IMG/VR virus record: IMGVR_UViG_3300048925_000666
Coordinates: 1 to 54,344 of that record
Direction: 5' to 3' (one strand)
Origin: a virus
DNA: 54,344 nt
Every line of letters starts with the position of its first letter. Within the stretch, counting starts at the first letter, position 1. The notes under the pieces were generated by a model, which was not told the origin of the DNA, did no database searches, and saw only the letters and a list, made by a program, of their open reading frames with translations. Below, one piece after another: positions 14,457-54,001 of the stretch. A program made the translations under genes and the position numbers.

Positions 14457-14891
14457 TTACAGATGGTCTTTCAGGTTCAGGCCCAGCAGCTTGGCGCTGC
14501 GCTCCAGGGCTTTCAGCTCCGCTTCTTCGATTTCGCCGTCCGCCTCGGCCACGGTCAGCATTACGTTGAGCACCGTCAGTGCTTCCTGCGGGCTGTGGGC
14601 CAGGTCGCCCAGCTCTTTCTCGGCGTTCTGGCGAAGGATGCGCGGGCCGGACTTGAAGTCGGTCTTGGCGCGGTCGATGGTGTTGGAAAGCTCCGCGCCG
14701 AAGCCTTGCAGCGCCGGGTTGTTGCTCAGGATGGTTTCGACCTTTTGCATTTCGACGTCTTCGAGATCTCCATCAGCCGCCGCCACGTAGATAGCGCCGT
14801 AGACAACAGCTTCCATCAGATCGCGGTTTGCCAGCTTGGACACAGCAGCGCGTGCCTGGCCGGATTTCTTACCGAACAATTTGCCTAACAT
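14457..14891 (-). CDS. TerB-family protein
   Basis: A 144-residue all-helical protein with the paired acidic TerB signatures VAAADGDLEDVE and VAEADGEIEEAE, which in TerB family proteins bind metal ions. The start MLGKLFGKKSGQ is basic. TerB proteins are linked to tellurite and colicin/phage resistance modules and to membrane complexes; here two membrane proteins follow in the same operon, so a small membrane-associated module is plausible. Confidence 0.88.
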   Translation of the reverse strand: MLGKLFGKKSGQARAAVSKLANRDLMEAVVYGAIYVAAADGDLEDVEMQKVETILSNNPALQGFGAELSNTIDRAKTDFKSGPRILRQNAEKELGDLAHSPQEALTVLNVMLTVAEADGEIEEAELKALERSAKLLGLNLKDHL

Positions 14892-15785: not shown

Positions 15786-15849
15786 AATTTAGCCACGCGC
15801 TAAAATTACGTCAATAGCTCATAGCTAAATAATTTAGCTGTGCGTGAAA
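15786..15849 (-). promoter_or_regulatory. Early left promoter pL and operators OL1-OL3
   Basis: Minus-strand -35 TTGACG (15809-15814) and -10 TAAATT (15786-15791) are 17 bases apart. Three copies of a 17-base operator overlap them: TTTAGC-CACGC-GCTAAA (15788-15804, perfect arms), AATAGC-TCATA-GCTAAA (15813-15829) and TTTAGC-TGTGC-GTGAAA (15833-15849). The same motif occurs between cI and cro, so this is the left operator of the prophage repressor. Confidence 0.8.
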
Positions 15850-15905
15850 TTTATCTTTCGCGAAGTCGAGAGAGTCAATACGACGGATATCTAAGGGGAG
15901 GGGTC

Positions 15906-15960
15906 TTTACGCGGCGATTAGCATCAGGCTAATATTCTGAAACACTGTATGTACATACAG
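15906..15960 (+). promoter_or_regulatory. Promoter with LexA box upstream of the DUF1654 gene
   Basis: TTTACG (15906-15911) and TAATAT (15930-15935) are 18 bases apart. CTGTATGTACATACAG at 15945-15960 is a perfectly symmetrical LexA box placed over the expected transcription start, 20 bases before the ATG. SOS induction should switch this gene on. Confidence 0.85.
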
Positions 15961-15980
15961 CATTAACGAGGGAGGTGTTC

Positions 15981-16301
15981 ATGGCAGTGCAGGGAAAAAT
16001 AAAGACGTCGCAGCCAACCCAGATGTCCGGCGTTGAGCGTCTTACGTTGAGGGTTTCCAGCATGATTAACCACCCGATCGCCCAGGATCGGAAGTGGGCA
16101 AAAATTCATCGGCTTGATACGGACGGCGATCGCGAGTGGGACGAGGTAATGGGCGTGCTTGCCGAGGTTGACGGCATTGAAATGACGTTTAACGACGAGG
16201 ACGAGTCCGTAACATTGAGCTGGGAAGCTCCTGATGATGAAGATCCTCGCGTCGAGGATCGCGCTGAACTTGATGCCTTGGAAGAGCCTGCGCCTTTCTA
16301 A
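15981..16301 (+). CDS. DUF1654 family protein, SOS-controlled
   Basis: A 106-residue soluble protein of a family largely limited to Pseudomonas: the core SGVERLTLRVSSMINHPIAQ and WDEVMGVLAEVDGIEMTFND fit DUF1654. The C-terminus is very acidic. GAGGGAGGTGTTC precedes ATG 15981; a GTG six bases earlier lies within that site. It sits alone on the plus strand between OL and the toxin-antitoxin operon, with a LexA box in front and a terminator behind, so it should be expressed on DNA damage even in the lysogen. Confidence 0.8.
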   Translation: MAVQGKIKTSQPTQMSGVERLTLRVSSMINHPIAQDRKWAKIHRLDTDGDREWDEVMGVLAEVDGIEMTFNDEDESVTLSWEAPDDEDPRVEDRAELDALEEPAPF

Positions 16302-16308
16302 CCTGCAC

Positions 16309-16338
16309 AAAAAAGCCCGCCCAAATGGCGGGCTCTTT
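16309..16338 (+). terminator. Bidirectional intrinsic terminator
   Basis: AAAAAAGCCCGCC AAAT GGCGGGCTCTTTT: an eight-base-pair GC stem with A-run before and T-run after. It ends the DUF1654 message on one strand and the secB-like operon on the other. Confidence 0.85.
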
Positions 16339-16349
16339 TCAGCCGTTGG

Positions 16350-16799
16350 TTACACAGGCGGGGCTATTTTCTTTTTACGGGTAGCCGGCTTCTTTTTGGG
16401 TGGCGCTTGTGGCGGTGCATATGGGAAATCGATCGAGTTGGCCCCTAAAAGCTCCAGCAAAGGCTTAGCTACATTGCGCAAATAGGGGTAAAGCAACGAC
16501 CCAAGCTCATATGGGGCCTCCCTGGTTGCAAGGGCGGATACGCCCTCAGGGGTTATGACCTGAAATGTGCCAATCACGCTGATTTCAAAAAATGGAGAAC
16601 CATCATTTATTGAAGTCTGCAGCTTGACCCGAACGTCGACGTAGTCGTCGAGCTCGATTTCACTAGGTGAACGACTGATTGCAACGTGAAACCTTGCGTC
16701 GTAGCCATCCTCGCCATCATCTTCAAACGATGGCTCAAAAGGCACCCCTCGGATTTCTTCGACCTTGACCAGGTCGAGTCGGACGTCATATAGGTTCAT
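16350..16799 (-). CDS. SecB-like chaperone of a toxin-antitoxin-chaperone system
   Basis: A 149-residue SecB-fold protein: strands in the N-terminal half (MNLYDVRLDLVKVEEI, FHVAISR, FFEISVIGTFQVI), then ATREAPYELGSLLYPYLRNV and LLELLGANSIDFPY, which parallel the SecB helix and the GGFPPL...PVNF region. It ends in a Lys/Pro-rich basic tail, unlike the zinc-binding tail of housekeeping SecB. Its start overlaps the hicB stop (ATGA). In known TAC systems such a chaperone folds and protects the antitoxin; when it is titrated or lost, the antitoxin is degraded and the toxin freed. Confidence 0.8.
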   Translation of the reverse strand: MNLYDVRLDLVKVEEIRGVPFEPSFEDDGEDGYDARFHVAISRSPSEIELDDYVDVRVKLQTSINDGSPFFEISVIGTFQVITPEGVSALATREAPYELGSLLYPYLRNVAKPLLELLGANSIDFPYAPPQAPPKKKPATRKKKIAPPV

Positions 16800-17242
16800 T
16801 TTACTAAGCTCAAGAAGACTTTTTGAGTAGTCCTGCGTTCATGCACAGTGAAGGAGCCTTCATAGTCCATCTGCTCAGGGTAGTGGTGGTGAACCTCTTG
16901 ATGCCGACCATGAATGTGACACTCAATCGCATCCTTCACCAGATCGTTAAGGCTCTTATCCTCGCGGACTGCTTGGCGTGCGGCGTCTCGATGCAAATCT
17001 CGGCCAATACGAACGTTGAATGTCCCAGAAAACGGCTTGTTAGGCTCAACGCCTAGGTCCGCGCAGGTTTCGAGATAGTCTTCCACTGCCTCCACGAATG
17101 CCTCGTGCAGACCCACGGGACTCTCTGCTTCGAAGCTGACCAGATCATTTATGTGAAGAATTTTTCCAAATAAGACGTTGTTTTCAAAGGAAAACTCCAC
17201 TGATCCCTGAAATCCCTTATGCTCAAGAATCTGCTTGCTCAT
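16796..17242 (-). CDS. hicB: HicB-type antitoxin with extended C-terminal tail
   Basis: The 148-residue antitoxin has the HicB partial RNase-H-like domain (about 1-72, with FGKILHINDLVSFEAESPVGL and AFVEAVEDYLETCADLG) and a ribbon-helix-helix DNA-binding part (about 73-110, FNVRIGRDLHRDAARQAVREDKSLNDLVKDAI contains it). Family members of this type usually stop near there. This one has about 38 more residues, His-rich then FTVHERRTTQKVFLSLVK. Such C-terminal tails are the chaperone addiction segments of known TAC antitoxins. It overlaps both neighbours by ATGA and should repress the operon. Confidence 0.88.
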   Translation of the reverse strand: MSKQILEHKGFQGSVEFSFENNVLFGKILHINDLVSFEAESPVGLHEAFVEAVEDYLETCADLGVEPNKPFSGTFNVRIGRDLHRDAARQAVREDKSLNDLVKDAIECHIHGRHQEVHHHYPEQMDYEGSFTVHERRTTQKVFLSLVK

Positions 17243-17493
17243 TTCATATGCCCTTGCGATATAAGAGCTTCTTTCACCAGCTCAATCTGATATTCCAATA
17301 AGGTGCCGTCAGGGTGACGTTTATGCAGCAAAATCTTGTGCTTGGTCTCGCTCACAAATTTTTTGCGCGACCCTGACCCCTCCAGTTCGGAGTAGCCGTA
17401 CGACTTAAGCAATCTGACAAGGTCTTCCCAAGAAAAATCCTTGGGGGGAGGACGACGACCAAAGTCGTCTCTGAGCTTCTGCAGCTTGCTCAT
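17239..17493 (-). CDS. hicA: HicA-type toxin (mRNA interferase)
   Basis: An 84-residue dsRBD-fold protein: SWEDLVRLLKSYGYSELEGS followed by GSRKKFVSE and KILLHKRHPDGTLLEYQIEL, the pattern of HicA toxins of the GSR type, in which the HxxHP region follows the second strand. HicA toxins cleave mRNA and stop growth until HicB neutralises them. I start at ATG 17493 (MSKLQKL); a longer frame adds nine unlikely residues. It is first in the hicA-hicB-secB operon, toxin first as usual for hic loci. Confidence 0.88.
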   Translation of the reverse strand: MSKLQKLRDDFGRRPPPKDFSWEDLVRLLKSYGYSELEGSGSRKKFVSETKHKILLHKRHPDGTLLEYQIELVKEALISQGHMK

Positions 17494-17516: not shown

Positions 17517-17535
17517 GCAACTATAGTTCAGTTGC
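17517..17535. promoter_or_regulatory. Inverted repeat upstream of hicA
   Basis: GCAAC-TATAGTTCA-GTTGC, containing AACTATAGTT, lies 24 bases before the hicA ATG. It is a reasonable candidate for HicB autoregulation through its ribbon-helix-helix domain. The rest of the gap up to cI (17536-17731) shows nothing definite. Confidence 0.4.
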
Positions 17536-17731: not shown

Positions 17732-18586
17732 TCATGCCTTTCTGGCATTCCAGATCAGCAGCACCTTCGCATGGATCGTCACGTCATCGATTCGGGCTGT
17801 CTGATTCTCATAGTGCTGGTTGTCTGAGATCAGTCGGTAATGCTCTTCATCCAGTCGCATAACTCGCTTGATGTACAGCTCGTTGTGCCAGGTTAGGACG
17901 TAAATGCCCTCGCCGATGAAGTCCTGAACGCCCTTGTCCACGATCACCATGTCTTTGTCGTTGATCGTCCCGGCCATGCTCTCGCCCCAGCCATTGATCA
18001 TGCCGAGCGACGTGTTAGACGTGTAGGTGACGCCCTTTTCACGCAGGATGTCTTCCCGGACCACCAGATTGCGCACGACCTCCTGATAGTCGGGCGGCAC
18101 CTGGCCGTGGCCCATCGCCGCGCGAATGTCGTACTGGGGAATCACGATTTCATCGTTGGTAGGCTTGAGGCTGGAAATGTTGGCTGTAACAACGTCAGTA
18201 GGCCCATCGTCCGGCTCCTCGGCAGCGGCAACAATTCTGTCCCGCGCTTCAACTGTCAAGCCTTTCACCTTCGCCAGCATCCGCTTCACCTGGTCAGCGG
18301 CGGTGGGAGAGGCCGATTGTTCTTGGATAGTCAACGAATCAACTGATTTTGTAACCGGGTAGCGGTCCCCTTCGACAGCTGACACAGAGTCGAACCAACC
18401 TCGCGGCAGGTTCTCGACTGCCTCGATACGGCGCGCAACATCGTCGCCCAGATTTTTCGCCGTTTTGTCGGAAAGGATCTGACTTAGGTGAGCAGGCGCC
18501 ATCCCCCAGCGATCAGCGCACGCGCCTTTCTTCTGGCTGCCTATCAGCTTGATCAGCTGCTGCTTGCGAATTTCGTAGATATCCAT
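17732..18586 (-). CDS. cI: Prophage repressor CI (HTH plus S24 peptidase)
   Basis: The 284-residue repressor has an XRE helix-turn-helix (about 20-60, GACADRWGMAPAHLSQILSD), a linker and a LexA/S24 peptidase domain with the catalytic Ser in NGWGESMAGT and Lys in ELYIKRVM. The expected self-cleavage site is MG in IRAAMGHGQVP. It should hold the lysogenic state by binding OL and OR, and cleave itself with RecA after DNA damage. I start at ATG 18586 (MDIYEIRK); upstream residues in the open frame read through the operators. Divergent from cro. Confidence 0.92.
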   Translation of the reverse strand: MDIYEIRKQQLIKLIGSQKKGACADRWGMAPAHLSQILSDKTAKNLGDDVARRIEAVENLPRGWFDSVSAVEGDRYPVTKSVDSLTIQEQSASPTAADQVKRMLAKVKGLTVEARDRIVAAAEEPDDGPTDVVTANISSLKPTNDEIVIPQYDIRAAMGHGQVPPDYQEVVRNLVVREDILREKGVTYTSNTSLGMINGWGESMAGTINDKDMVIVDKGVQDFIGEGIYVLTWHNELYIKRVMRLDEEHYRLISDNQHYENQTARIDDVTIHAKVLLIWNARKA

Positions 18587-18605: not shown

Positions 18606-18673
18606 TTTAGCTCAATGCTAAATGTGCCCACAGCTAAATATTCCTTGCTCTGATATTAGCCCTAAGCTAAATT
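18606..18673. promoter_or_regulatory. Right operator region and promoter pR
   Basis: Operators: TTTAGC-TCAAT-GCTAAA (18606-18622, perfect arms), a degenerate site with one good half, GCTAAA (18622-18638), and ATTAGC-CCTAA-GCTAAA (18655-18671). pR: TTGCTC (18645-18650), 17 bases, TAAATT (18668-18673), the same -10 as pL. The last operator covers the pR spacer and -10, so repressor there blocks cro; the leftmost lies nearest the cI start. Confidence 0.8.
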
Positions 18674-52890: not shown

Positions 52891-53613
52891 TCAGTGCTCG
52901 AACAGATCCGACTGGTGAGGTTCGATTGCCTCGATCAACTGCGGCCCCTGATTCCGCACATTTCCCACGTCCTTGCTCACCTCAAACCAGGTGAACTGCT
53001 CTGTCGGTCGGCAGCATTCTTTGGCGATCTCGGCGGCGCGCTCCGGCGTGGTTTCTGGATCAACCCATTCTCGGGCATGCTCCGGGCTCAGCACCACCGG
53101 GCGCCGATCATGGATGTCCACCATGCCCTGGTCTGAATCCGCGGTGATGATGACAAACCCATCCTGCGGGTCCGGCTCAAGTCCCTGATGCACTTCCGCC
53201 AGCGCGGCGAAGAACATCGGTCCTTCCTCCTTCAGCCTGATGAAATACGGCTGCTTCTTCTTGGGATCGTCCGGATCCTTCACCCACTCGAACCAGCCAT
53301 TGGCGGGGGCCAGCGCGCGCCCGTTCGGCCAGAGCTGTTTGAAGTACTTCCCCGTCATCACCGTCTCGACCCTGGCATTTATGGGTGCGGGCCGCTTGGC
53401 ATCCTTCTTCGCCCAGAATGGCGACCATCCCCATTTCACCTTGTCCACGCTTAACCCGTCTTCAGTCGGGCGGATTATCTCCACTCGAGTCGACGGCGCG
53501 ACGTTGTAGCGCTCGATAGGCCACAGGTCGTAGCCGTTGATGACGATCTGCTTCGACGCCAGGTCTTTGAGGTAATGGTCCATCGGCTCGTAGATCGAGT
53601 AGCGTCCGAACAT
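52891..53613 (-). CDS. HMCES/YedK (SRAP) family protein lacking Cys2
   Basis: A 240-residue SRAP-domain protein. The family normally starts MCGR, and Cys2 forms the thiazolidine crosslink with abasic sites in single-stranded DNA. Here the start is MFGRYSIYEP: Cys2 is Phe (codon TTC). The other active-site residues remain: Asn79 in INARVET, Glu109 in ANGWFEW and His168 in VDIHDRRP; RYNVAPST is also intact. It may still bind abasic DNA or ssDNA without crosslinking. The start is firm because upstream in-frame residues are unlike any protein; a LexA box lies 60 bases upstream, divergent. Confidence 0.9.
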   Translation of the reverse strand: MFGRYSIYEPMDHYLKDLASKQIVINGYDLWPIERYNVAPSTRVEIIRPTEDGLSVDKVKWGWSPFWAKKDAKRPAPINARVETVMTGKYFKQLWPNGRALAPANGWFEWVKDPDDPKKKQPYFIRLKEEGPMFFAALAEVHQGLEPDPQDGFVIITADSDQGMVDIHDRRPVVLSPEHAREWVDPETTPERAAEIAKECCRPTEQFTWFEVSKDVGNVRNQGPQLIEAIEPHQSDLFEH

Positions 53614-53646
53614 GGTGTCACCTGTCGAAAATCGGCTTATACAGTG

Positions 53647-53689
53647 TTGACCACGATAGCTCAGCTTAGTTAACTGTATGCATATACAG
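53647..53689 (+). promoter_or_regulatory. Promoter with LexA box for the SOS unit
   Basis: TTGACC (53647-53652), 17 bases, TTAACT (53670-53675), with the LexA box CTGTATGCATATACAG at 53674-53689 over the end of the -10. It should control the 53708 and umuD'-like genes and possibly the divergent SRAP gene. Confidence 0.85.
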
Positions 53690-53707
53690 TATCCAAGAGA
53701 TCGAACC

Positions 53708-54001
53708 ATGTATTTTCTCATCACACCCCGAAGACGCCTTGGCGTGGCGATCGACAAAAAGGAGCTTCCCAAGATTCCTCCGATCCGGGGAGATGTCCAC
53801 ATCATCGAAACCCATGATGACCTCCTTGGACGGACCACCACTACCGCCTGGGTATTCACCGCTGCCCCGGGGCCGGGAGTGCTTCCCCGTTTGCTGGACG
53901 TGACCATCACCGGCATGGCGACGAATGGGATGAACCTCACTGGCGTCGAGGTAATAGACGATGCGTTCTATGCGCAGTCCTGGTGGTGCCGCTTTGAGTG
54001 A
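53708..54001 (+). CDS. SOS-unit protein of unknown function
   Basis: A 97-residue protein (MYFLITPRRRLGVAIDKKEL...) with HIIETHDDLLGRTTTTAWVF and VEVIDDAFYAQSWWCRFE. First gene behind the LexA box and immediately before the umuD'-like gene. I recall such proteins upstream of umuDC in Pseudomonas prophages, without a known role. ATG 53708 has AGAGATCG ahead; an earlier ATG lies inside the LexA box. Confidence 0.7.
   Translation: MYFLITPRRRLGVAIDKKELPKIPPIRGDVHIIETHDDLLGRTTTTAWVFTAAPGPGVLPRLLDVTITGMATNGMNLTGVEVIDDAFYAQSWWCRFE

Follow-up and report, generated by a model that had tools for sequence, protein, structure and literature searches.

Research on toxin-antitoxin-chaperone (TAC) systems began with their study as stress modules encoded on chromosomes. 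In the HigB1-HigA1-Rv1957 system of Mycobacterium tuberculosis (Mtb-TAC), the SecB-like chaperone Rv1957 stabilises the antitoxin via a C-terminal segment. A TAC composed of HicAB and a SecB-like chaperone is known from Methylomonas methanica MC09 (Mmet-TAC), where the system works and needs its chaperone (Bordes et al. 2016, PMC5105189); this kind of system is therefore not new. CmdTAC and MqsRAC are TACs of E. coli that defend against phage, and the trigger of CmdTAC is the T4 major capsid protein, which takes the chaperone (PMC9519451, PMC11618068). The HicAB pair of Pseudomonas putida prophage P1 is a working toxin-antitoxin system that gave no defence against the phages tested and had no effect on prophage stability; in the same host, a separate RexAB pair did defend (PMC12894663). 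No report of a phage-borne HicAB TAC was found in a literature search with thin coverage of subscription journals, which leaves such absence unproven.

The window, that is, the whole stretch of DNA analysed here, is a viral record 54,344 bases long. At the DNA level it resembles Pseudomonas phages, and it encodes portal, prohead-protease-type and HK97-type capsid genes. Within its immunity region, this lambdoid Pseudomonas prophage carries a three-gene module that is very probably a HicAB-type TAC. Like Mmet-TAC, the module combines HicAB and a SecB-like chaperone in one operon, and the HicB extension covers residues 119–159 there and about 111–148 here, according to the published description; no phage or prophage setting was described for Mmet-TAC, whereas the present module is located in a prophage immunity region. 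Mtb-TAC resembles it in the chaperone, since Rv1957 (5mtw) is the best structural match of the third protein, but differs in its toxin and antitoxin families (HigBA) and in a tail motif that is not common to the present module. CmdTAC and MqsRAC are also three-gene TACs with a SecB-like chaperone, but their toxins are an ADP-ribosyltransferase and MqsR, and defence is demonstrated for them and predicted here. Finally, the lambda RexAB and P. putida RexABpp genes are likewise lysogen-borne and located downstream of cI in the immunity region, but the proteins and the mechanism (membrane effector) are unrelated.

Organization of the module and its control elements

The three genes are encoded on the minus strand. 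hicA (17239–17493) encodes an 84-aa HicA-type toxin (PF07927, E 3.5e-8; PHROG 8887 'toxin', E 1.3e-24); hicB (16796–17242) encodes the 148-aa antitoxin (PF05534, E 2.8e-18, residues 56–106; PHROG 9151, E 7.3e-43, residues 4–119); and the third gene (16350–16799) encodes a protein of 149 aa, identified as SecB-like by an AlphaFold2 model, Foldseek and hhalign, with a basic C-terminal tail of net charge +7. ATGA overlaps join hicA to hicB (17239–17242) and hicB to the third gene (16796–16799). The preliminary description had already reported these minus-strand genes, their overlaps and a HicA-type toxin with a HicB-type antitoxin; the coordinates, the strand and both overlaps match the sequence, and the two Pfam matches agree. 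The HicA-domain toxin gene is followed by the HicB-domain antitoxin gene, with both domains above the Pfam cut-offs, which places the pair in the HicAB family. Toxin, antitoxin and SecB-like chaperone together in one operon are the composition of a TAC. None of the PADLOC models matched HicA, HicB or the third protein. The G+C content of the module (49.6%) is lower than that of the window (59.2%), which suggests a recent entry, as for a mobile cassette.

A probable HicB operator, the palindrome GCAACT-N7-AGTTGC (17517–17535), is located 23 bp before the hicA ATG and is the only perfect match in the window. In the collection of related loci described below, the palindrome is perfect upstream of hicA in about half of the loci, and most of the remainder have a near match, irrespective of whether a third gene is present; it is therefore probably an operator shared across this HicB family, with no particular tie to TACs. 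The search for a promoter before hicA found only a TATAGT hexamer resembling a -10 element (17520–17525, minus strand, identified by eye), which overlaps the candidate operator and has no good -35. A pattern scan indicated an intrinsic terminator after the third gene (16309–16333, minus strand); the number of such matches is not above chance, and the position fits. The interval between cI and hicA showed no terminator, which makes read-through from cI possible, and the module still has its own operator.

The HicB tail and the SecB-like third protein

HicB comprises a HicB-like N-terminal region, a DNA-binding part (residues 56–106) and a C-terminal tail (residues 111–148; 16799–16912, minus strand), a putative chaperone-addiction segment with homologous tails in TAC-type relatives. 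The extra residues first noted at this end are present, but they number about 34 and not about 38, because the protein has 148 aa against a median of 114 aa in 58 short relatives. The tail has no clear counterpart of the W-x-R...Y motif found in the Mtb ChAD, and in many loci a conserved K/R-E/Q-x-H-x-H stretch opens the HicB tail.

The association between tail and third gene was evaluated in 103 related HicB loci from public genomes and viral contigs, a set gathered by similarity and so not random. HicBs were considered long from 130 aa upwards, and the third gene was the immediately next one, if of 115–200 aa. Such a SecB-sized gene is adjacent to 35 of the 45 long HicBs and to 1 of the 58 shorter ones (P 2.5e-17), and after clustering at 80% identity the proportions are 25/34 and 1/43 (P 1e-11). 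Two of the 35 counted genes, a transposase piece in L008 and a gene in L019 that is not SecB-like, were excluded when the chaperones were aligned, and their removal leaves the result unchanged. The C-terminal tail is absent from the 58 short HicBs; as in TACs, the antitoxin carries an extension that two-part relatives are missing. Ten of the 45 long-tailed HicBs have no SecB-sized neighbour, so the tail alone is no proof of chaperone dependence. Compared with the closest relative, L086, the HicB core is 76% identical, while the tail and the third protein have about 41% and 40% identity, respectively. This joint divergence of tail and third protein, with a conserved core, would be expected if a tail and its dedicated chaperone changed together.

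Some loci of the collection depart from this arrangement. At L019:4530–5000, L027:4449–4760 and L108:5485–5772, long-tailed HicBs are immediately followed by third genes that are not SecB-like and have no Pfam match; those of L027 and L108 are under the size limit and look alike by eye. These genes possibly encode other partners for HicB tails. In two Oceanospirillum loci, L031 (4001–4555) and L036 (4001–4561), HicBs with a similar 80-residue tail have a perfect HicB-type operator directly before hicB, and no hicA was found by script at the usual place; the HicB of L031 has a weak match to ParG.

By sequence, the third protein matched nothing significantly in Pfam, PHROGs, NCBIfam, PADLOC or the PDB, and a direct scan against genome contigs, viral contigs, phages and plasmids returned nothing at the thresholds used; its relatives were reached via HicB only. 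Its AlphaFold2 model, built on an alignment of five relatives, has a pLDDT of 76.6 and a pTM of 0.68 and shows four strands and two helices in the order of SecB. In Foldseek, the PDB entry ranking first was 5mtw, in which the M. tuberculosis TAC chaperone Rv1957 is solved together with an antitoxin tail peptide; its four Rv1957 chains were followed by the SecB proteins of E. coli and H. influenzae (E 2.7e-6 to 8.7e-5 over all these matches). TM scores to solved SecBs are 0.4–0.6, at moderate model confidence. Among viral protein models, SecB is the name given to two of the four best matches.

Profile comparison points in the same direction. The third-protein profile matched six true SecBs from other genomes in hhalign with an E-value of 5.2e-5, against 0.38 for the HicB family as control, and the alignment pairs the stretch LLYPYLRNVAKPLLE of the third protein with ILFPYARECITSLV of SecB. 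The third protein of relative L089 matches PF02556 at E 7e-4, under the curated cut-off, and SecB also leads the PDB sequence matches of a wider set of third proteins, but at E 0.3. For the related protein of the HK106 type, the model is SecB-like and of high confidence, with a pLDDT of 87.6 and a TM score of up to 0.73 to Rv1957; the profile comparison with SecB is weak (E 0.067), and the SecB fold rests there on the model. There is, then, good evidence, mostly structural, that the third protein has a SecB fold; its homology to SecB is based on that structure and on moderate profile support, with no curated family cut-off reached. The SecB fold and the basic tail had been proposed beforehand for this 149-residue protein; model, Foldseek, hhalign and tail charge agree with that proposal, and fold prediction placed SecB-type chaperones as the top PDB matches. 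In view of the fold search, a non-chaperone identity for the third gene product was discarded.

Position in the immunity region and recurrence in other prophages

Upstream of hicA, on the same strand, a gene encodes a CI-like S24 repressor (17732–18583, minus strand; the mechanical ORF extends to 18631; PF00717, E 4.9e-20; PHROG 4, transcriptional repressor). CI-type operators of the form TTTAGC-N5-GCTAAA are found in two regions, OR (18606–18671), with two sites, and OL (15788–15933), with four; the average in shuffled sequences was 0.78 against the six of the window, and six were reached in 0 of 100 shuffles. Since these operators lie on both sides, the module occupies the OL–cI interval that corresponds to rex in lambda, as the preliminary description had placed it, and a DUF1654 gene (15975–16301, plus strand; PF07867, E 1.3e-20) intervenes on the OL side. 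This gene is convergent with the module and not part of it; it had raised the possibility that the module lies outside the OL–cI interval, a possibility discarded once the operators had been located. RexA and RexB are not encoded, and the slot holds HicA, HicB and the SecB-like protein. The analogy with rex is positional only. The same description had read the architecture as a hic-type TAC in this position, with which gene order, tail, predicted SecB fold and operators are in agreement.

The window also has two perfect LexA-type boxes, CTGTATNNNNATACAG, where 0.02 are expected. One (15945–15960) precedes the DUF1654 gene beside OL; the other (53674–53689) is near the right end, beside an SRAP-family gene (52891–53940). 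The leftward operon includes a TerB-family gene (14457–14891, minus strand), with a DNA match also in Pseudomonas phages ZY21 and Nican01.

Gene order in the related loci, the suggested check on how widespread the set is, revealed that it recurs beside a repressor in several prophages. About a dozen distinct prophages have the same module after a CI-type repressor. It holds this place in HK106 and mEp234, in a Rahnella prophage and in the viral contigs L086, L087, L090 and L092–L099, and a CI-type or HTH repressor is present upstream on the same strand in L086, L087, L089–L099, L011, L012 and L015. The records of coliphages HK106 and mEp234 present hicA and hicB between cI and PL, followed in HK106 by a 'hypothetical protein', and the Rahnella prophage has the gene order of HK106. 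These coliphage cassettes share with the present module the gene order, the place between cI and PL, the operator and a SecB-like third protein; however, their HicB is about 41% identical and their third protein about 22%, and their records do not annotate a TAC. Annotated as 'hypothetical', the chaperone gene of HK106 and mEp234 is previously unrecognised. In E. coli, the HK106 cassette was found in 6 of 5,426 genomes, at 99.9–100% identity. In one of these genomes (AR_0118; L124, 3501–4641), it occurs unchanged behind a different, shorter HTH regulator, beside a YdaT-family gene, as a mobile cassette would.

Proposed mechanism and biological meaning

Judging from its family, HicA would be an mRNA-targeting toxin. 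HicB may bind the GCAACT-N7-AGTTGC palindrome before hicA, repress the operon and neutralise HicA. Its tail would hold HicB in an unfolded or protease-prone state until bound by the SecB-like partner, and in the uninfected lysogen the chaperone would stabilise HicB and keep the toxin off. During infection, the chaperone might be drawn away, most likely by an abundant late phage protein as in CmdTAC. With the chaperone lost, HicB would be degraded and HicA freed, translation would stop and the infection would abort. By the precedent of CmdTAC and MqsRAC, anti-phage defence by the module, including the superinfection exclusion that the preliminary description had considered likely, is plausible, and plausible only, considering the null result for HicAB of P. 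putida P1. The complete reading, a HicAB-type TAC that forms a cargo cassette of the immunity region and acts in anti-phage defence, is in our judgement reasonably probable.

It is rather unlikely that the TAC serves prophage retention (lysogen addiction) instead of defence. Curing would then end the supply of chaperone and antitoxin, and the stable toxin would arrest the cured cell. Addiction is the classic role of toxin-antitoxin systems, to which a TAC adds a second component needing constant supply, and the module has its own conserved operator and a low G+C content; on the other hand, P. putida P1 HicAB was without effect on prophage stability (PMC12894663), the two tested TACs act in defence, and the rex slot of lambda holds exclusion genes. 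A part in the lysis-lysogeny decision, with HicB or HicA levels feeding back on the CI switch, is very unlikely. The position between OL and cI would suit it, and lambda RexA reportedly biases the CI switch (PMC11077077), but the HicB-type and CI operators differ, and the only perfect HicB-type match of the window precedes hicA. We regard as most improbable an ordinary two-part HicAB next to a SecB-like protein that serves the phage's own folding and not HicB, for although SecB is a general chaperone, the basic tail of the third protein is unusual and its binding to HicB is putative, the third gene accompanies tailed and not short HicBs, is coupled by ATGA overlaps, travels with hicAB in HK106 and related loci, and belongs to the same three-gene cassette in an E. 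coli prophage with a different repressor.

Returning to the defence reading, it may tentatively be extended to other prophages. Across lambdoid prophages of Pseudomonas and Enterobacterales, HicAB-SecB could recur in the rex slot as a defence cassette, in which the chaperone would be a sensor occupied by capsid or late proteins of invaders and not of the own phage, and in which tail and chaperone would co-evolve fast, setting specificity.

The kind of system is already known, and the present module is a new member of it; the HicAB-SecB set recurs at a repressor-adjacent site in several prophages. The records examined list the chaperone genes as hypothetical, so the module is likely under-counted. 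The finding also raises the problem of how such a phage, which makes capsids, avoids triggering its own system. In the literature found, a trigger has been named for only one TAC, CmdTAC. HicAB-type TACs are repeatedly located beside the repressors of temperate phages, including HK106 and mEp234, which grow on laboratory E. coli, and this makes the question of the trigger directly testable.
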